The notes under the pieces are model-generated. The model did not search any database, was not told the DNA's origin, and saw only the letters and a program-made list of their open reading frames with translations. A stretch of 33,363 nucleotides of DNA from Thermoanaerobaculia bacterium. Lineage in GTDB: Bacteria; Acidobacteriota; Thermoanaerobaculia; Multivoradales; JAIOJS01. Shown piece by piece: positions 631 to 23,542 of this stretch. Within the stretch, counting starts at the first letter, position 1. The number at the start of each line of letters is the position of its first letter. The position numbers were made by a program, and so were the translations under genes. The stretch is taken from contig JAIOJS010000414.1 in NCBI GenBank assembly GCA_019911795.1, forward strand, positions 1-33,363. The letters run 5' to 3'.

Positions 631-3159
631 CTACCAGGCGGACGTGTTACCGCTCTCGAATCCATCCGCGAAGATCAGATCCACCGCAACCTGAACTGTA
701 AGTTGGTGCGATGTCACGACCGATGTATTGCTGGCCAGTGCCTCGTCCCATTCTCCGACCTCACCGAACTGAGCGCTCTGGCTCTTGTCCGCGTCGACGA
801 TACAGCCAAACCAATAGCTACCGGGCGGGACCGACGAAGGGAACGGGACCGAAAGGTCAACGGACACGGTGGATCGGCCGAGAACTCCACCGGCGACTCG
901 GACCCGGCCCAAGAACCTATCCCCCGACGAGATGGTCTGGTTGGTCGATGCATAGAAGTCGACATCGAAGCCTCGACTGTCTCCCCCGCCGAGGTTCTCG
1001 ACATCACAACTCGCTGAGAAGGGAGCGCCGGCGGAAACCACCGAAGGAGAGAACGCCAGCTGTGGCTCCTCGGCGGCTTCTAGGTTGGCGGCCAAGTCCT
1101 GCAGTAGCTGCCAGGCGAGTCCGGGAAAGTGGTCGCAGCGGATATCGTCATCGGGTCCCGTCCCCGTCGTCTGTCCGCACCAAGTGATCCGGTCACCGTC
1201 CTGAGCAAAGAGATTGATCGAGACAGCGTCCGGTCCTAGCTGGACGATAGCGGAATCGCTGATAGCGAGCGTCGACGGTGTCGAGTTCCACCCCTTGGTC
1301 CCCCCCTTGTCGAAAAGCTGGGCGTTGGAGGGAAATGACGGATGGTTGTCGAGAGGGGTGCCCTCGAGCATGACAGCCAGAGCTTGGGAGGTCGGGGTCG
1401 GATCCAGCAGGTCCCCCTCCCACAGTTTCTCCATCAACCCGCCCTGTGCTCGTGGCGTCACACTCGAGATCCCAGAGGCGTACAGCCGGTTGTGTCCACG
1501 GACCGAGTTGAATGCAGGGAACCCATCGGGAAAGATCTGCTCCAAGTCCTGGAACGCATCGGACCCGGTACGAAACAGCGGCTCGAATGCTGATGGCGGG
1601 ACGAGAAAGTATGAGGGTTCGGACTCGAAGCCGCTCCCCTGTTGGCCCTGCCAGAGGATCGTGCGATCGATGTCCTGGATGCTCAAGACCAACCCGTACT
1701 CCTTGCCGACCCCTGGGATCCCTGAGATCCAATGGTTCAGGCTCTGATCGGAATTGGCCGTCCCCAGCGTTGGATGGTCGACCAGAAGGGATGCGGCGGC
1801 GTTGTCGCTGACCTGCATCATCGCCTGGTCAAACCGAGCCACGGAGAATTGCAGCCCCCAGTCTGTGTTGCCGAGGCCAGGAAAATCATTCAACGGGCCG
1901 GAGAGTTGGTCCCGCTCGTCGACGTACCAGCGAAATCTCGAATCGACCCCATCGGTGTAGTTGCCAATCCAAGTGAAGGCGATCTCGCCCTCCTGTTCTT
2001 CGCGCTTCAGTTTGACGTGAATCGCCGTCTTGACGGTGCTCGCGGCGTAGAAGGGCTCGGTATGGCGGTTCGCGATCGATTGGTTGGTTCCGAGATTGCG
2101 CGCATAGAGTCCAAGCCTGCCGCGCGGTGCCCCTGCCCCACCCTCGAAGGCCGCAATGAGAGCATCCAACTGAGCAGAGTTGGACTCCAGGTCCGGCTCG
2201 GACGGCATCGCCGACACTTCATGCAGCGACTTCACGGTGTCACCCCAGACACCGTTGAACCTCAGAGTGCCGCCGCTGACATAAGAGTCGATATCGATGA
2301 GGAACGTGTTCCCGTCTGCATTCTGGCTGTTTCGAGTGGCGAGTTCCGTAGAGGTCATCCCTCGATATTGCGCCCATTCCCCGCCTGGATATTGCGCGAT
2401 GATCATGGCGTAGCGATAGCCGCGGGCTGGATCCCAGTACCGTTCGAGATCGATGACCCGACCCGCCATCGGGCTCACGAGATCGGTCACATCGGGCGAC
2501 TGTAAACCGTAGTAGAGATGGGTCATCGGTTGGTTGGGGTCCTTGACCCAGATCCCGGCATACTTGAGGTTGCCCCCTGAATCCGTATAGGCCTCGAAGT
2601 CGATTAGCGAGTAGCCGAGCGTCAGATAGGTCTTCAGATTCGCCTGGAACTGATCATCGGTCTGTGTCGTCCTCAGAACAGCGCCATAGAAGTCGCCGTC
2701 CTCCAGAAAGATGGACGAATAGCGCTTGTTCCCATCGAAGTAATCGACCTCCACATCGAGATAGCGTCCCGCCTTGGCCGCCATCGCGTTGAAGAAGGTT
2801 TCCCACTCGGAGTAGGGTCCCTGGATCAGGGTGTGGACGACAGCGCCCGTGTCGAGAAAGAGGGCCGTGAAGCGCTCCTGCGAGCCGTTCCAGCGGATCT
2901 CGAGATCGACCAGCTCACGACCCAGGTTGGCCTGGCTGATGATCGCAGCATCGAGAGTGGCTCGGCTGACGTCGAGTTGCCAGGCCGTGCCTGAGGCGCC
3001 TGCAATCTGCTCCGGGCGAGTTCCATACCATTCGGTGGTGGACCCATCATCGGATTCACTTACGGTTTCGAAGTCGGAGGCAAACGCAGCTCCGGCTACG
3101 GCGAGAAAGGTGGATAGAAGCAGGGCCGTCAAGGCCGGGGATGACAACGGGTTTCGCAT
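631..3159 (-). CDS. Secreted class A beta-lactamase-like serine hydrolase with N-terminal tandem repeats and C-terminal CARDB-like domain
   Basis: Signal peptide; SxxK (ASTVKTAI), SDN (QVSDNAAAS) and KGGTKGW (KTG-like) motifs; N-terminal ~45-50 aa repeats (W....Y.A.I/F..) like bacterial tandem repeat domain 1; CARDB-like region (SCDVENLGGGDSRGFDVDFYAS); ends IFADGFESGNTSAW. Confidence 0.85.
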   Translation of the reverse strand: MRNPLSSPALTALLLSTFLAVAGAAFASDFETVSESDDGSTTEWYGTRPEQIAGASGTAWQLDVSRATLDAAIISQANLGRELVDLEIRWNGSQERFTALFLDTGAVVHTLIQGPYSEWETFFNAMAAKAGRYLDVEVDYFDGNKRYSSIFLEDGDFYGAVLRTTQTDDQFQANLKTYLTLGYSLIDFEAYTDSGGNLKYAGIWVKDPNQPMTHLYYGLQSPDVTDLVSPMAGRVIDLERYWDPARGYRYAMIIAQYPGGEWAQYRGMTSTELATRNSQNADGNTFLIDIDSYVSGGTLRFNGVWGDTVKSLHEVSAMPSEPDLESNSAQLDALIAAFEGGAGAPRGRLGLYARNLGTNQSIANRHTEPFYAASTVKTAIHVKLKREEQEGEIAFTWIGNYTDGVDSRFRWYVDERDQLSGPLNDFPGLGNTDWGLQFSVARFDQAMMQVSDNAAASLLVDHPTLGTANSDQSLNHWISGIPGVGKEYGLVLSIQDIDRTILWQGQQGSGFESEPSYFLVPPSAFEPLFRTGSDAFQDLEQIFPDGFPAFNSVRGHNRLYASGISSVTPRAQGGLMEKLWEGDLLDPTPTSQALAVMLEGTPLDNHPSFPSNAQLFDKGGTKGWNSTPSTLAISDSAIVQLGPDAVSINLFAQDGDRITWCGQTTGTGPDDDIRCDHFPGLAWQLLQDLAANLEAAEEPQLAFSPSVVSAGAPFSASCDVENLGGGDSRGFDVDFYASTNQTISSGDRFLGRVRVAGGVLGRSTVSVDLSVPFPSSVPPGSYWFGCIVDADKSQSAQFGEVGEWDEALASNTSVVTSHQLTVQVAVDLIFADGFESGNTSAW

Positions 3160-3659: not shown

Positions 3660-5828
3660 CTAGTTAGTTGGCGGTGCCAGGTCTTCCGTGCTCGATGCCC
3701 CGATGAGGGTCCGAATCCTCACCACCTCCCCTTCGGCCTTGAGCCGCCTAGGGGCGTCTTCGGGAAACTGTGCCGCGACGATCTTCTGAATCCTCTCGCG
3801 CACTGGTAGGGCCGCTTCTGGGTCGCTCAGATTCTTCTCCAAAAGATCCGCCAACCCCGTCAACGGCACCTGGAGCAATGCATGATCTGGCCCGACAACC
3901 GCTTCTAGCTCCTCCACGGCACGCGAGAAAAATACCCGGGCTTCTTCATAGCGGCCCCGGCGCACCGCGATCAGTCCCGCATTGTGGCTCTGTAGGGCTG
4001 CGTCCGGTGTTCCTGGAGTCCAGCGCTCGACGAGGGCGCGCGCGCGTTCCGCCTCCGCCGCGGCCTCGTCGTCACGATGGAGCAAGAGCAGGGCGTGAAC
4101 GCGGTTCACCGACACTGCCGTCGCCGGGAAGGAGTCCGACTCGCCCCGCTGCCCGAGGATGGCGATAGCCTCGTCCAAGGCAGCGACTGATTCTTTCGCT
4201 CGCTCCTGAAGGTTGGCGACCGCTCCAAGGTTCGTCAGGCTCTCGACGATCGACAGATCGTCGCTTCTCAACTGGGCGCGTTTGGTGGCGATCGCCCGAT
4301 CGATCAACTCCGCCGCCCTCATGAGGTCGCCCATCGAGGCCCTCGTTTCGGCCAAGTCATCCCAAAGATCGGCCTGGAGCAGGGGTTCGTCCACGAGTTC
4401 GACGTCGATGCGCGACTCGGCAGCGTCCAGTAGCTCTTCGACGGAAAGCGGCTCCCCCTTGGCTCGTTGCAGGGGACTTGCTTCGCGAAAGACCGAGAGC
4501 AGGAAGTCCTTCAATCGGACCGCTCGCTCGCTCTCGTGTTGCGCCTGGAGGGCGGCCTCCTTGGCGTGACCGGTCTGCATCAGCGCGACGGTCAATCCCG
4601 CAACCAGGGAGAACAGGGTCAGGACCGTGGCAACCGCCGCCACTCGATTCCGACGCAGGAACTTGCTCAGTCGATACGAACGGGTATCCGGACGAGCGGA
4701 GACCGGTTGGCCGCCGAGATGACGCCGGAGGTCGTCGGCCAGTGCCGCCGCCGACCGGTAACGACGCTCCGGTTCGCGAGCGAGGGCCCGGAGGAGGATC
4801 GTGTCGAGGTCACCCTCCAGACGACGGGCACGGCGACGGGTCTCCGGCCCACCAGTCGAGGTCCGTTCGAGCCGTTGTGAGGGTCTCTCCGTAACCTCGC
4901 GTTCCACCTCCTGAACAAGTGCCCCGGGACTGTTGTTGGTTCTTGGGTTGGGCAATTCACCGGTGAGCAGTTCGTAGAGCAGAACCCCCAGCGCATAGAC
5001 ATCGGTGGCGGTCGTGACCGCCTCACCGAGAACCTGTTCCGGTGCGGCATAGGACGGCGTGAAGCCGCGCAGTTCGGATCGGCTCTCACCCGCGTCCGAT
5101 TCTCCTTCGAGGACCTTGGCCAACCCGAAATCGAGGAGCTTCGGCAAGCCCTGAGCCGTGATCAGGATGTTGGAAGGCTTGAGATCGCGATGAAGGACGA
5201 GCGAGCGATGGGCGTAGTCGACCGCCTCGGCGACGGCGATCACGAGGTCGAGAATCCTCTCGACCGACAGGTCTGAGCGGCTCGCATAGCGGGTGATCGG
5301 CTCGCCTTCGATCAACTCCATGGCAAACCACGGGCGTCCGTCCGCAGCCAGACCACCATCGAGGAGGCGAGCGATCGCGGAGTGCTCGAGCCTGGCCAGG
5401 ATCTGCCGCTCCAGCAGGAACCGTTGGACCATCCCATCGGTCGAGAGTCCGAAGCGCACCATCTTGATCGCCGCGCGCTGATCGAATCCACCCTGACTAC
5501 GCTCACCGAGAAAGACCTCTCCCATACCGCCTTCGCCGAGTCGCTCTTTCAGGCGCCACGACCCGACCTGACCGAGCTGGCTCGAACCTTCATCCGACAG
5601 CAGCTTGCGACTGGTCTCAGAGACGACCTCTACCCTTCCCCGTTCCAAGGGCCCTTCGGCGACCGCGTCTCTGGTCAGCATCCGTTCGAGGAGCCTGGCC
5701 ATCTCGGGAGCGGTCTTGGCGATCTCCTCGACGCGAAGACCTCGGGCGCTCGCGTCCAGATCGAGGAGCTCGCCGAACTCGCGGACGAGATCCGATGGCG
5801 TCGAAGGCTCTCTAGGGTCGCCCATCAA
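3660..5828 (-). CDS. Serine/threonine protein kinase with transmembrane segment and C-terminal TPR region
   Basis: Kinase motifs GEGGMGEVFLG, AAIKMV, LHRDLKPSNIL, LLDFGLAKVL, APEQVLGEAVTTATDVYALGVLLYELLTG; TM VAAVATVLTLFSLVAGLTVAL; TPR-like helices after. Confidence 0.95.
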   Translation of the reverse strand: MMGDPREPSTPSDLVREFGELLDLDASARGLRVEEIAKTAPEMARLLERMLTRDAVAEGPLERGRVEVVSETSRKLLSDEGSSQLGQVGSWRLKERLGEGGMGEVFLGERSQGGFDQRAAIKMVRFGLSTDGMVQRFLLERQILARLEHSAIARLLDGGLAADGRPWFAMELIEGEPITRYASRSDLSVERILDLVIAVAEAVDYAHRSLVLHRDLKPSNILITAQGLPKLLDFGLAKVLEGESDAGESRSELRGFTPSYAAPEQVLGEAVTTATDVYALGVLLYELLTGELPNPRTNNSPGALVQEVEREVTERPSQRLERTSTGGPETRRRARRLEGDLDTILLRALAREPERRYRSAAALADDLRRHLGGQPVSARPDTRSYRLSKFLRRNRVAAVATVLTLFSLVAGLTVALMQTGHAKEAALQAQHESERAVRLKDFLLSVFREASPLQRAKGEPLSVEELLDAAESRIDVELVDEPLLQADLWDDLAETRASMGDLMRAAELIDRAIATKRAQLRSDDLSIVESLTNLGAVANLQERAKESVAALDEAIAILGQRGESDSFPATAVSVNRVHALLLLHRDDEAAAEAERARALVERWTPGTPDAALQSHNAGLIAVRRGRYEEARVFFSRAVEELEAVVGPDHALLQVPLTGLADLLEKNLSDPEAALPVRERIQKIVAAQFPEDAPRRLKAEGEVVRIRTLIGASSTEDLAPPTN

Positions 5829-6433
5829 GGACTCGGGTCGGCGCCCATGAGCTGGTCATGGAGAAGAGCCCTGGCCGCTCGCCAGTCTCGCAGCACCGTC
5901 CTCTCGGAGATGCCGGTCGCGTCGCCGATCTCGGCAAAGGTCAGACCGCCAAAGAAGTGCCACTCTACGGTCTGAGCCAGCCGCGGTTCTTCGGCTTCCA
6001 GCTGATCGAGGGCCACATTCAAAGCCAACAGCTCTTCGACCGACGAACCGGCCGCGGCCACCGACAAGGTCGCAGGGTCCAAGTCGACCGCCACCTGGTC
6101 TCCCCATCGCTTCGCCGAGTTTCGCTTGCGGGCTCCATCGATCACGATCTGCCGCATCGCCCGCGAGACGACAGCAAAGAAGTGGACCCGATCGGCGAAC
6201 GGCAACTCATCTTGCCTGGCCAGGCGCAAGAAAACCTCGTGGACCAGCGAAGTTGCTGAAGGACCCTTGCGCGCTCCTCTGAGATGCCGGACCGCGAGCT
6301 GCCGGAGGTTGGGATAGACCAATTCGAACAGCTTCTGGGATGCGCTGTCATCTCCAGCCCTCGACGCAAGCAGGAGCAGGGAGATATCCCCCTGAAGCCC
6401 CTCGGCGGGTTCCTTGGTGACCATTGAGCGCAT
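5825..6433 (-). CDS. ECF-type RNA polymerase sigma factor (TIGR02999-like, kinase-associated type)
   Basis: LLLLASRAGDDSASQKLFELVYPNLRQLAVRHL, SLVHEVFLRLA, region 4 LTFAEIGDATGISERTVLRDWRAARALL; stop overlaps the kinase ATG (ATGA, 5825-5828). Confidence 0.93.
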   Translation of the reverse strand: MRSMVTKEPAEGLQGDISLLLLASRAGDDSASQKLFELVYPNLRQLAVRHLRGARKGPSATSLVHEVFLRLARQDELPFADRVHFFAVVSRAMRQIVIDGARKRNSAKRWGDQVAVDLDPATLSVAAAGSSVEELLALNVALDQLEAEEPRLAQTVEWHFFGGLTFAEIGDATGISERTVLRDWRAARALLHDQLMGADPSP

Positions 6434-6617: not shown

Positions 6618-8432
6618 TCATGGTGTGGCCAACCCCCAAGCCTGGGTGTCGCCCCCCTCGAAACCATCACCAAAAAGCAGCGTGCTGTCCGCAATCCAGA
6701 GATCGAACTTCCCGCGTACTTCGTGGTCGGCTACGTAGATTATTCCCTTCGAGTCGGGGGTCCATTGAACCCTCTGTGCCGCCGAATCCGCCGGGATTGG
6801 CGTCGAGTGGACCCGCTGCGGCGACGCGGTCCCGTCGCTTCGAACCCGGTAGACATCCACTCGCTCGTCCACAGATTGGTCTGCGAGGTAAGCGACCCAA
6901 GCACCGTCCGGAGAGACTCTAAACTCCTGAACCTCACCTCCGAAGGCAAAGATCGAATAGCTCAATCGCTCCGCCTGCGAAGAGAAGTCGAGGTTCACCG
7001 CGAAGAGCTCCGACGTCGAAGCCGATAGGAGATCACCACAGAAGTACAGTCTTCCCCTCGAGGGCGAACTCGAGGAAGAGTCGGTCCGGCACTGCGAGTC
7101 GATTCCGCTGCCGGCGGGTGGGTTGCCAAAGAGTGGATGAGGAGACGAGGAACCATCGAGGGGAGCGCTCCACCACTCGAGCTTGCCGTCGACCCGAAGG
7201 TCTCCCTTGATGAGAACCAACTCTTCGTCCAAACCGGTGACCTGTGCTGCACTGAAAACCTCGAGTTCCGGCCCCAGGGGGTCGTTCAGAAGAATCCCGC
7301 TCTGCCAGGGACCCTCAATGGGTACCCGATACGCATTCGTCGAGCCGGTAGCCGAAACCTGAGTACGGTGGACGATGAAGTTGTTCCGTTCCCATACATC
7401 CACAACTCCGTAACCTGAGAGGATCGGGGAATTTAGTCGCACCGAGGCTTCGGAGGGACCGTCGATGGGGACACTCCACATCTCGCGGCGGTTGCTCACA
7501 TTTGCATCTGCAATGTACACGACCCGAGCGGAGTCGGAGGAGATCAGGGCGGTGAAGACATCACCATTAATCTGAAGGGGCACACTCAAACGGGTACTCG
7601 CCGTGAAGGGACCCTCGATGGGGACTGAGAACAGCTCAAAGACTTCATCGAAACGCTGATCGGCCGAGTAGATGACCCGTGAGCCATCGGGACTGAGCAC
7701 ATCGCCATAGGCAAAGTTCAGCTCTCGAACATTGCCGGCCTCGATCATGGAACCATTGAGCCGTGTCGGCGAAGCGGATCCGTTCCATGGCACACTCCAG
7801 AGTTGAACCTTGGTCTCGTTGGGTTCTCTCGCGCGAAAGAGAAGGCGCTCTCCGGCCCCGAGAACTTCGAGCACCCACAGATCGTCGCTGAGCTGGTTCG
7901 GCGGCTGCGCGCCGTCCACTGGCGTTACCCAGAGTTCGGAAGCTCCTCCCCCAATCACCTTGAACCACGCCCTAGAACCGTCGTCCGACAGTCCCATAGA
8001 GATGTCAACTTCCTGGCCCATGGCCAAAGCTGGACTGAGTCGAATCGCGGCCGCCGCGGGACCCTCGATCGGAACACTCCAGAGTTCTTTCCGGCCGAGG
8101 GTCATCTGATCCGTCGCATAGACAACCGTCTGACTGTCCGGAGTGACGAAGAAGCGAAACTGCGGATCGCTCCCTGGAGGACGGATGGCCGAGAGGCGCC
8201 TCGGCTCTCCTTCGTATCGGGGAGCGGAGAACAGGTCCGATATGCCACTGGTCTCGGCGTCGACCTGAAACACGACCCACTCTCCGTCCGGAGATACCTT
8301 GATGTTGAAAGACACTACATCGGAGGTCGGGAGCCCCGCCGGCGACAGCTTCCTCACTTCGACATCGGACGGTTGTCCCCACGACGGGCTGCTGCTCAAG
8401 GAAAGCACGATCCATAGGTACCGGTACTTCAT
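6618..8432 (-). CDS. Secreted TolB/WD40-like beta-propeller protein
   Basis: Signal peptide; repeated propeller blades (VSPDGEWVVFQVD, LSPDGSRVIYSAD, VSPDGAWVAYLAD, WTPDSKGIIYVAD) and repeated ELWSVPIEGP units; ends LLFGDGFEGGDTQAWGLATP. Confidence 0.88.
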   Translation of the reverse strand: MKYRYLWIVLSLSSSPSWGQPSDVEVRKLSPAGLPTSDVVSFNIKVSPDGEWVVFQVDAETSGISDLFSAPRYEGEPRRLSAIRPPGSDPQFRFFVTPDSQTVVYATDQMTLGRKELWSVPIEGPAAAAIRLSPALAMGQEVDISMGLSDDGSRAWFKVIGGGASELWVTPVDGAQPPNQLSDDLWVLEVLGAGERLLFRAREPNETKVQLWSVPWNGSASPTRLNGSMIEAGNVRELNFAYGDVLSPDGSRVIYSADQRFDEVFELFSVPIEGPFTASTRLSVPLQINGDVFTALISSDSARVVYIADANVSNRREMWSVPIDGPSEASVRLNSPILSGYGVVDVWERNNFIVHRTQVSATGSTNAYRVPIEGPWQSGILLNDPLGPELEVFSAAQVTGLDEELVLIKGDLRVDGKLEWWSAPLDGSSSPHPLFGNPPAGSGIDSQCRTDSSSSSPSRGRLYFCGDLLSASTSELFAVNLDFSSQAERLSYSIFAFGGEVQEFRVSPDGAWVAYLADQSVDERVDVYRVRSDGTASPQRVHSTPIPADSAAQRVQWTPDSKGIIYVADHEVRGKFDLWIADSTLLFGDGFEGGDTQAWGLATP

Positions 8433-13209: not shown

Positions 13210-14490
13210 ATGGAGGAGCGACCATTGAAGCCAGCAAAGATCGGAAATCGATCCGTCGAGACCCTCGTGTTCCTGCTAGTTGTGACGGCGCAACTAACTG
13301 CTGCGGATACGTTCATAGTCGACACCGAGTTGGATACCCTGTCTACCGGTTGCTCCCCTGTCATCGTCGGCGATTGCAGTCTGCGGGGAGCCATCGAGCG
13401 GGCGAATAGCCATCCTGGAACCGACATCGTGACCTTTGGATTCAGCGCCTCGGACTTCACCCTGACACGCTTGGGAGCCGACGAGGACCTCAATCAGACC
13501 GGCGACCTCGATATCCTCGACGTGGTTCACATCGTGGGAAACGGCAACACCGTGATTGACGCGACGCTGATCGGCGATCGGGTCTTTGATATTTCTTCCG
13601 CCAGCGAGGACATGTTGTTCTTCAAGGACCTTACGGTTACGGGTGGGACGGCTCCGGCCGGCGACGCCTTATTCAAGGGAGGAGGTATTCGTTGCCAGGA
13701 CGGAGCTTTTGTTCTCGATGGGGTTGTCGTGGTCGCCAACGGCCCGGTTCGGGAAGGCGGTGGTGTCTACTCGGAGTGTGATCTCACGCTCAATGTCACG
13801 TCGATCAACGGGAACTCAGCCACGAATGGTGGTGGTGGGATCTCAATGTTCAGCGGCGCCCTCTCCGCCACTCTGTCGGCGATCGTCGACAACCACGCCG
13901 CGCACGGTGGGGGACTCTCAGTTGGCATTCCCGCCACCGCCGACCTCGACAACATGACCCTCAGCGGCAATACCGCCACGAACGACGGCAGTGCAGTCCA
14001 GAACTCTGGCTCTCTGGAGCTCGACTTCGTCACCATCGTCGCCGCTTCGCCAGGGGTGACCGCCCTGGCCCATCTCAACGGTTCTGGGGTGACCACTTTG
14101 AAGAACACTCTGATCGCAGGAACCTGTCGGACGGTTCCGCCGGGTCTCTTCATCACGGGCGGCGGCAACCTGGAGAGTCCGGGCGATAGCTGTGGACTCA
14201 ATCCCACGATCGACCTTATCAATGTTGCGGATGCCGGACTGCTGCCGTTGGGTGACTATGGTGGAGCCACCCTCTCGCACATGCCCCGGGCTAGTAGCCC
14301 AGCCGTCGATGATCCGCTCGGTTCGACGACCGGCTGTCCGACCTATGACCAGCGCTTTGGCCCAAGCCGTCCTCTCGACGGGAACAACGACGGTATCGCA
14401 GCCTGCGACATCGGAGCGATCGAAAGGGATCATCTGTTCTTCGATGACTTCGAATCGGGCGACACGACTCAGTGGTCAGCGGGTCCGTAG
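13210..14490 (+). CDS. Secreted CSLREA-domain / right-handed beta-helix protein
   Basis: CSPVIVGDCSLRGAIERANSHPGTDIVTFG resembles the CSLREAI motif; beta-helix style repeats (GGGVYSECDLTLNVTSINGNSATNGGGGISM...); ends LFFDDFESGDTTQWSAGP. Confidence 0.87.
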   Translation: MEERPLKPAKIGNRSVETLVFLLVVTAQLTAADTFIVDTELDTLSTGCSPVIVGDCSLRGAIERANSHPGTDIVTFGFSASDFTLTRLGADEDLNQTGDLDILDVVHIVGNGNTVIDATLIGDRVFDISSASEDMLFFKDLTVTGGTAPAGDALFKGGGIRCQDGAFVLDGVVVVANGPVREGGGVYSECDLTLNVTSINGNSATNGGGGISMFSGALSATLSAIVDNHAAHGGGLSVGIPATADLDNMTLSGNTATNDGSAVQNSGSLELDFVTIVAASPGVTALAHLNGSGVTTLKNTLIAGTCRTVPPGLFITGGGNLESPGDSCGLNPTIDLINVADAGLLPLGDYGGATLSHMPRASSPAVDDPLGSTTGCPTYDQRFGPSRPLDGNNDGIAACDIGAIERDHLFFDDFESGDTTQWSAGP

Positions 14491-22676: not shown

Positions 22677-23094
22677 ATGCGCCGAGTGACCCTACCCATC
22701 GAAGTCCTCTTCACGGCTGTCCTGATCGTACCGGCGTGGGCGGCGGCCCAGCCAACGCCGCTCGACCCGGCGGAATTCCAGGTCAACACCTACACCACCG
22801 ACGCTCAGCGTCTTCCTACGATCGCCGTCGATCTCGAAGGCAACTTCGTCGTCGCCTGGGACAGCCTCGGCTCGAACGGCAGCGACACCAGCAGCTTCAG
22901 CATCCAAACGCGACGGTTCGACGCCGATGGCGTACCCATCGGCGTTGACTTCCAGGCCAACACCTACACCACGAACGGTCAGTCCTATCCCGCGGTCGCC
23001 GTCGATCCCGAGGGCAATTTCGTCGTCGCCTGGACCAGCAACGGCTCGAGCGGCAGCGATACCAGCGGCTCTAGCCTCCAGGCGCGACGGTTCG
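22677..23094 (+). pseudogene. 5' portion of a secreted repeat protein (FQVNTYTT...VAVDxEGNFVVAW units), truncated or fused
   Basis: Signal peptide followed by two 174-nt repeats (22776-22949; 22950-23094 incomplete). Homology between the copies stops at 23094, mid-repeat, and the reading frame then runs into unrelated out-of-frame sequence to 23273. Confidence 0.6.
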
Positions 23095-23098
23095 GCCG

Positions 23099-23542
23099 CC
23101 CGACCTTGGTCGTCAACTCGCCCTCGGGCGGCACCGGCGGCCCCACCTGCAAACCCCGGTCGGCCTGGTCTATCGCGTCGTGCGAACTGGATCTCCGCCC
23201 CCAGCCCTTCGCCTCCCCGAACGCTTCCGACTCCGCGGTGAGGACGACCCGCGGGTGCCGCAGGATTACCTGACCCGTAACCTCGTCGGTCAGCTCCACT
23301 ACATGCTGGGCGTTACCTTCGAGCGACAAGACCTCGCTCGCTCGCTACGCGAGCTGGCCGAGGCGGCGCAGGCGGCCCCCGACAACGACGTGCTCTTCTT
23401 CAACCTCGGCCTGATCTATGGACGCATGGGCCGGGCCGAAGACGCTGAGCGAGCCTTCGCCCGCGCCGCTGCCATCGATCCTCGGGCACGACAGGGCGAG
23501 GGCAACCTCTCGGTCGAACTGCAATCAGTCACGATCGACTGA
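23099..23542 (+). pseudogene. 3' fragment of a TPR-containing protein (possibly the C-terminus of a membrane glycosyltransferase-like protein)
   Basis: Open frame continuing upstream of the 23180 start: PDLGRQLALGRHRRPHLQTPVGLVYRVVRTGSPPPALRLPERFRLRGEDDPRVPQDYLTRNLVGQLHYMLGVTFERQDLARSLRELAEAAQAAPDNDVLFFNLGLIYGRMGRAEDAERAFARAAAIDPRAR; no credible native start. Confidence 0.6.

Follow-up and report, generated by a model that had tools for sequence, protein, structure and literature searches.

Cargo of the type IX secretion system (T9SS) of Bacteroidota, with its PorU sortase, combines a Sec signal peptide with a C-terminal signal shared by many unrelated proteins. This signal, a C-terminal domain (CTD) of 40–100 aa, is of beta-sandwich origin, and short and long versions are known from Prevotella intermedia (PMC11969387). 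Other lineage-specific tags, including PEP-CTERM with exosortase, IPTL-CTERM, GlyGly-CTERM with rhombosortase and MYXO-CTERM with myxosortase, occur on dozens of exported proteins, often behind choice-of-anchor domains; these tags were found by phylogenetic profiling (PMC1569441, PMC3237569, PMC11980579). Here we describe a short tail, DGFESG..W, that ends three proteins in a 33,363-nucleotide window (the whole stretch analyzed, to which positions refer) from the 5.41-Mb draft genome of a Thermoanaerobaculia bacterium. The sequence comparisons below give good support to its status as a sorting tag, carried at the C-terminus by Sec-exported proteins in some lineages of this class.

Like C-terminal sorting signals in general, the tail occupies the extreme C-terminus of many unrelated Sec-exported proteins and is lineage-restricted. 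It departs from T9SS signals in its host phylum, Acidobacteriota, and in its size, with 15–20 residues and none of the CTD motifs. Unlike PEP-, IPTL-, GlyGly- and MYXO-CTERM tags and LPXTG signals, its consensus contains no signature motif, hydrophobic or transmembrane helix, or basic cluster. Two further comparisons concern beta-sandwich domains. LamG/ConA-like jelly-rolls that start D-x-FESGDxxxW correspond to the tail over their first ~25 residues, whereas in nearly all tagged proteins the remaining domain is missing and the stop codon usually lies 0–6 residues past the W. In donor-strand complementation, as in chaperone-usher pili, and in split domains, a short strand completes the beta-sandwich of another protein. 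Such a pairing may apply to a second tail, PVEL, and a strandless Fn3 domain (see below); for the DGFESG tail, no such acceptor was found in tag-bearing genomes. Unlike in those systems, the tail here is C-terminal on soluble exported enzymes.

A conserved C-terminal tail and its passengers

The pattern DGFExG was found at 151 sites in the source genome and FxDGFExG at 143, and the reversed patterns at none. The stop codon lay within 35 aa of the motif at 62 of 65 distinct sites examined, and 61 of these 62 C-terminal sites carried Trp at +10 from the Asp, a residue that was not part of the search pattern. The remaining three sites were an aspartyl-tRNA-synthetase-like protein (L006, assigned by sequence appearance) and two internal occurrences. 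A scan of named genomes gave 109 C-terminal sites out of 119. In the congener G015, 1.16 Mb of sequence taken without selection carried the tail on 20 of 800 predicted genes, and in none of them was it internal-only.

A consensus was derived from 192 distinct tails of many genomes, with a regular expression that did not require the W. It reads [ILV]F-x-DGFE[ST]G[DN]T-x-x-W, often followed by SxTVP and then the C-terminus. F, D, F, E, G and W were invariant, and the residue preceding [IL]F was unconserved. Tail length had two peaks: 29 tails ended at the W itself and 83 ended five residues past it, typically in SxTVP. Codon identity was 0.53 at third positions versus 0.89 at positions 1 and 2, and the tail serines used both TCN (108) and AGY (47) codons; because third positions vary and both Ser codon boxes are used, it is the amino-acid sequence of the tail that is conserved. 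A literature search for the motif returned no relevant match. Unusual placements were also seen. In L133 (minus strand) the tag lies at open reading frame (ORF) residues ~40–58, right behind a signal peptide and thus at the N-terminus of the mature, hydrolase-like protein. In L153:3828-5276 it lies mid-protein, before a GBD_T9SS_assoc-like (Gal-binding-like) domain, and a relative of this protein, L050:2400-3542, likewise carries it internally.

Signal peptides were called by a heuristic, with only complete genes counted among the tagged. One was predicted for 25/31 and 54/64 of the tagged genes versus 50/164 and 108/375 of the untagged, and in the unselected G015 region for 15/16 versus 199/780. 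Roughly one in ten predicted secreted proteins there was tagged (20 tagged genes versus 215 signal-peptide-like genes). The initial annotation had proposed that the motif should be enriched at C-termini and among signal-peptide proteins, and both enrichments were observed. Passengers include S8, M14 and M36 peptidases, beta-propellers (FG-GAP and LVIVD among them), beta-helices and the beta-lactamase-like protein of the window.

All three window tails were read directly in the sequence, confirming the common ending on unrelated passengers that had been claimed for them. Tail 1, IFADGFESGNTSAW-COOH, occupies codons 634–675 on the minus strand (stop codon 631–633), and its coordinates had been given correctly. 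By ORF and Pfam analysis it ends an 842-aa protein (631–3159, minus strand) with a predicted signal peptide, BTRD1 repeats, a class-A beta-lactamase-like Beta-lactamase2 domain (residues 350–621; 1297–2112, minus strand) and a weak CARDB-like stretch before the tail. Tail 2, LLFGDGFEGGDTQAWGLATP-COOH (6621–6680, minus strand; stop codon 6618–6620), ends a 604-aa PD40-type beta-propeller with a predicted signal peptide (6618–8432, minus strand; ORF and Pfam). Tail 3, LFFDDFESGDTTQWSAGP-COOH (14434–14487, plus strand; stop codon 14488–14490), ends a 426-aa predicted beta-helix (13210–14490, plus strand; ORF, NCBIfam and AlphaFold2), in which a choice_anch_Q domain (NF041518, residues 341–406; 14230–14427, plus strand; E 1.2e-12) stands directly upstream of the tail. 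The AlphaFold2 model of this third protein says little on its C-terminus, since the last ~120 residues had a predicted local distance difference test (pLDDT) score below 50 on a shallow alignment. An NCBIfam search of the window proteins gave no model matching the tail and no T9SS CTD.

Counts were extended to 297 genomes of the phylum and 150 of the class. They were bimodal, with 40–143 sites in many genomes of several families, 0–2 in whole sister genera and some intermediates. The same split appeared within families f2 and f8 and inside one genus, where a looser pattern preserved the contrast (4 versus 108 in two genomes). Matches in the named-genome scan were almost all to Thermoanaerobaculia or Acidobacteriota records. 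The tail is restricted to some lineages of the class Thermoanaerobaculia. A wider spread to Kangiella, Peribacter, Acidimicrobiia, Chloroflexi and Acanthopleuribacter was considered and rejected, as these genomes held 1–7 sites each, mostly internal or isolated; records labelled Kangiella, Peribacter or Acidimicrobiia had single sites. One record labelled Deltaproteobacteria (JAHZIX01, P_S1_bin.14; L034, L042) shows tag counts identical to those of G344, which belongs to the same order as the window, and its label is therefore probably wrong. The f2/g2 clade (G089, G108, G126) lacks tags, PilQ-type secretin, C25, exosortase-like and choice_anch_Q matches together, and these joint absences suggest a simplified surface.

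Jelly-roll ancestry and the position of known anchors

In an Acanthopleuribacter protein the motif begins a ~200-aa domain. AlphaFold2 modelling of this domain (mean pLDDT 87.9) and Foldseek gave a ConA-like lectin fold. When the domain was searched in 31 genomes, tag-bearing ones matched almost only its first ~25 residues, after which the proteins stopped; among the loci examined there were 44 tail-only and 11 long matches, and the complete ~200-aa fold was mostly absent. A few complete jelly-roll copies stand at protein ends in tag-bearing genomes. No jelly-roll remnant was found downstream of the tail stop codons. By sequence, the tail derives from a ConA-like jelly-roll, whose N-terminal edge it represents without the rest of the domain. 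The initial annotation had offered the leftover start of such a domain as an alternative to a tag. Its ancestry part holds, as the first ~25 residues of the domain correspond to the tail; the leftover part does not, given the six invariant residues, the use of both Ser codon boxes and the lack of any remnant after the stops. The jelly-roll thus accounts for the origin of the tail and not for its present state. In the tag-free genome G144, L253 encodes an exported jelly-roll without the DGFESG edge, followed by dockerin-like repeats.

The tail also stands where other lineages carry anchors. Choice_anch_Q occurred 16, 11 and 6 times in the tag-bearing genomes G015, G310 and G152, versus 0–2 in tag-free relatives, and in tag-bearing genomes the domain was usually followed directly by the tail. 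Choice_anch_Q proteins of the tag-free G365 and G042 end instead in an IPTL-CTERM-like helix. The tagged protein of L040, in which choice_anch_J precedes the tail, matches the C-terminal part of myxosortase- and rhombosortase-dependent M36 peptidase models. Judged by domain order, the tail fills the slot held by IPTL-CTERM in tag-free relatives.

Candidate machinery and a second tail

Peptidase_C25 proteins were widespread, and one subfamily, ~800–950 aa in most genomes and 36–57% identical to its G015 member across most of the sequence, was seen only together with tails. Typing covered 36 genomes of our choice (17 tail-bearing and 19 tail-free), with G310 assigned by match length only. The subfamily was present in 15/17 tail-bearing genomes (13/15 DGFESG-rich genomes plus G387 and G365) and 0/19 tail-free ones (Fisher 2.4e-8), and the contrast was concordant inside families f2, f4, f8, f11, f82 and f85. 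His623 and Cys665 (G015 numbering; GHGG and TC motifs) were invariant in 14/14 members. The nearest solved structure was PorU (6za2, E 2.5e-19), ahead of the gingipains. The PorU model NF033707 matched with 195–231 bits (1e-57 to 1e-68), below its equivalog cut-off of 420 bits. The co-occurring sortase that the initial annotation envisaged thus has a candidate in this PorU-like C25 subfamily. Together with the C-terminal position and the signal peptides, this co-occurrence supports reading the tail as a tag, with sorting, anchoring or secretion as its possible cellular role.

Other machinery did not follow the tail. The T9SS component SprA was not detected, with 0/40 genomes matching SprA_N (PF14349) and the control genomes likewise without a match. 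Exosortase was rejected as a partner: EpsH-like proteins (PF09721) matched in 31/36 genomes, tag-bearing and tag-free alike, which sets the tail apart from PEP-CTERM. The presence of secretins of type II secretion systems (T2SS) or type IV pili did not track the tails either.

A second tail, PVEL[LMQ]xFx[VI]E, lies directly before the stop codon (e.g. in L214, L217, L082 and L186) and was first noticed on choice_anch_Q proteins. It was found in 31 of the 150 class genomes and its reversed control in none. Its distribution followed that of the first tail, with 29/46 DGFESG-rich versus 2/104 other genomes (Fisher 7.6e-17, uncorrected for phylogeny); exceptions to this pairing are G387, with 12 PVEL tails and no DGFESG, and G365, with one PVEL tail.

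The gene directly after C25 in ten genomes encodes a 140–202-aa exported Fn3-like protein with the core LKWSTASEVDNFGYDVYRS... and, in several, a lipobox-like Cys. This two-gene unit, in which a PorU-like C25 is paired with a small Fn3 protein that is exported or lipoprotein-like, lies at L293:1927-5372 in the source genome and at L294, L296–L299, L302, L303, L305 and L306. G365 (L300) has a single protein in which C25 and the Fn3 core are joined, and the next ORF with a tail terminates in TPVELMSFSVE. Homologous Fn3 domains in Bacteroidota T9SS cargo start with a strand that is absent from the acidobacterial proteins, e.g. LPVELTSFTATTAGSAAVR-LAWATASEVN. In a four-sequence search, a profile of the acidobacterial core matched the four Bacteroidota domains at 1e-9 to 1e-13, starting just after that strand. 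On these matches the PVEL tail is the first strand missing from the Fn3 neighbour, and we therefore propose that the tails may dock into incomplete beta-sandwich partners.

Clustering of gene neighbours around tagged genes returned only kinases, extracytoplasmic function (ECF) sigma factors and sulfatase-like proteins. In the window, an ECF-type sigma factor and a Ser/Thr kinase-TPR pair lie between tagged genes 1 and 2 (3660–6433); kinases of this type recur near tagged genes (19 proteins, 17 loci), possibly only through their commonness. The protein encoded at window positions 22677–23273 is related to a tagged repeat family (QVNTYTT...FVVAWDS) but has lost its own tail. The ORF that follows looks TPR-like, and a rearrangement may have taken place there.

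Possible roles of the tail

We assign a probability of roughly one half to the reading that the DGFESG tail is a short tag at the C-terminus, used for sorting or docking in a surface-display system that resembles T9SS but has no detectable SprA. Cargo would leave the cytoplasm by Sec, after which a T9SS-like apparatus would recognize the tail and either display the cargo on the cell surface or attach it there. The best candidate component is the PorU-like C25 cysteine peptidase, usually encoded beside the small Fn3 protein, a partnership suggested by co-occurrence. Tails may dock by donating a strand or edge to a partner whose beta-sandwich is incomplete, and the C25 enzyme may process or attach the cargo. 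The parallels with T9SS lie in the beta-sandwich origin of the signal, the co-occurring PorU-like C25 and the presence of the PVEL-Fn3 domain in T9SS cargo.

Several observations weigh against this reading. The tail-rich genomes G320 and G359 have no detectable C25 ortholog, and other C25 proteins that match PorU even better are present in tail-free genomes. The C25 link is a co-occurrence that was found after other machinery families had shown no such pattern. The tail-to-Fn3 docking proposed above concerns PVEL and not the DGFESG tail. In the modelled jelly-roll the motif forms no core strand and lies at the moderately confident N-terminal edge (pLDDT about 60–74). Tag-bearing genomes yielded no jelly-roll that lacks this strand and could accept it, so that for the DGFESG tail docking is proposed by analogy. 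Internal tags are few, and one stands directly behind a signal peptide; the internal and N-terminal tags (L133 and the two Gal-binding-like relatives) fit docking better than C-terminal cleavage.

A possible but more tentative variant dispenses with a T9SS translocon. Either tag (DGFESG..W or PVELxxFxVE) would be the first strand or edge of a split domain whose remainder is a separate surface protein that captures the cargo, with the C25 enzyme beside the Fn3 acceptor completing processing or attachment. We consider it unlikely that the tail is instead an outer-membrane export signal for type II-like secretion, with cargo released rather than anchored. T2SS exports Sec substrates like the tagged proteins, tag-bearing genomes contain a T2SS-like operon with secretin and pseudopilins, and GlyGly-CTERM genomes usually carry T2SS (PMC3237569). 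However, this operon does not follow the tail, since tag-free genomes, including G108 and G371, have it too. Joint loss of T2SS and tags was likewise rejected, as the first TIGR02517 matches were PilQ of a pil operon. To our knowledge, no linear C-terminal T2SS signal has been described.

Somewhat more doubtful still is a mini-adhesin or structural cap that acts without machinery, a lectin-like edge binding a surface polymer or stabilizing its passenger. Homology to the ConA-like lectin fold and the whole jelly-rolls retained by some proteins at the same place would suit it, but fifteen residues alone are unlikely to bind a glycan and the passengers share no fold to cap. Gain or loss across whole lineages, together with the joint occurrence of the tail with PVEL tails and C25, favours a system over such a role. 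Functionless debris, in the form of truncated jelly-rolls spread by recombination of 3' gene ends, is improbable despite the clear jelly-roll origin: besides the sequence constraint and missing remnants described above, tails end at preferred lengths, are limited to exported proteins and reach 143 sites in one genome versus 0–2 in sister lineages. A degron, or a quality-control mark read by periplasmic tail-specific proteases, would explain the extreme C-terminal position and free terminal residue, but is very improbable for a tail found on roughly one in ten predicted secreted proteins, large enzymes included, and occupies the slot of anchor signals.

If the surface-display reading is correct, a large, mostly uncultured lineage sorts dozens to ~150 exported enzymes by an undescribed route, with a recognizable tag, a candidate sortase and a second, independent tag. 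Annotation pipelines could then predict surface proteins of Acidobacteriota. The tail would also show a beta-sandwich C-terminal signal shrinking to a single edge, and the function of PorU-like C25 peptidases outside the type IX system would become testable.
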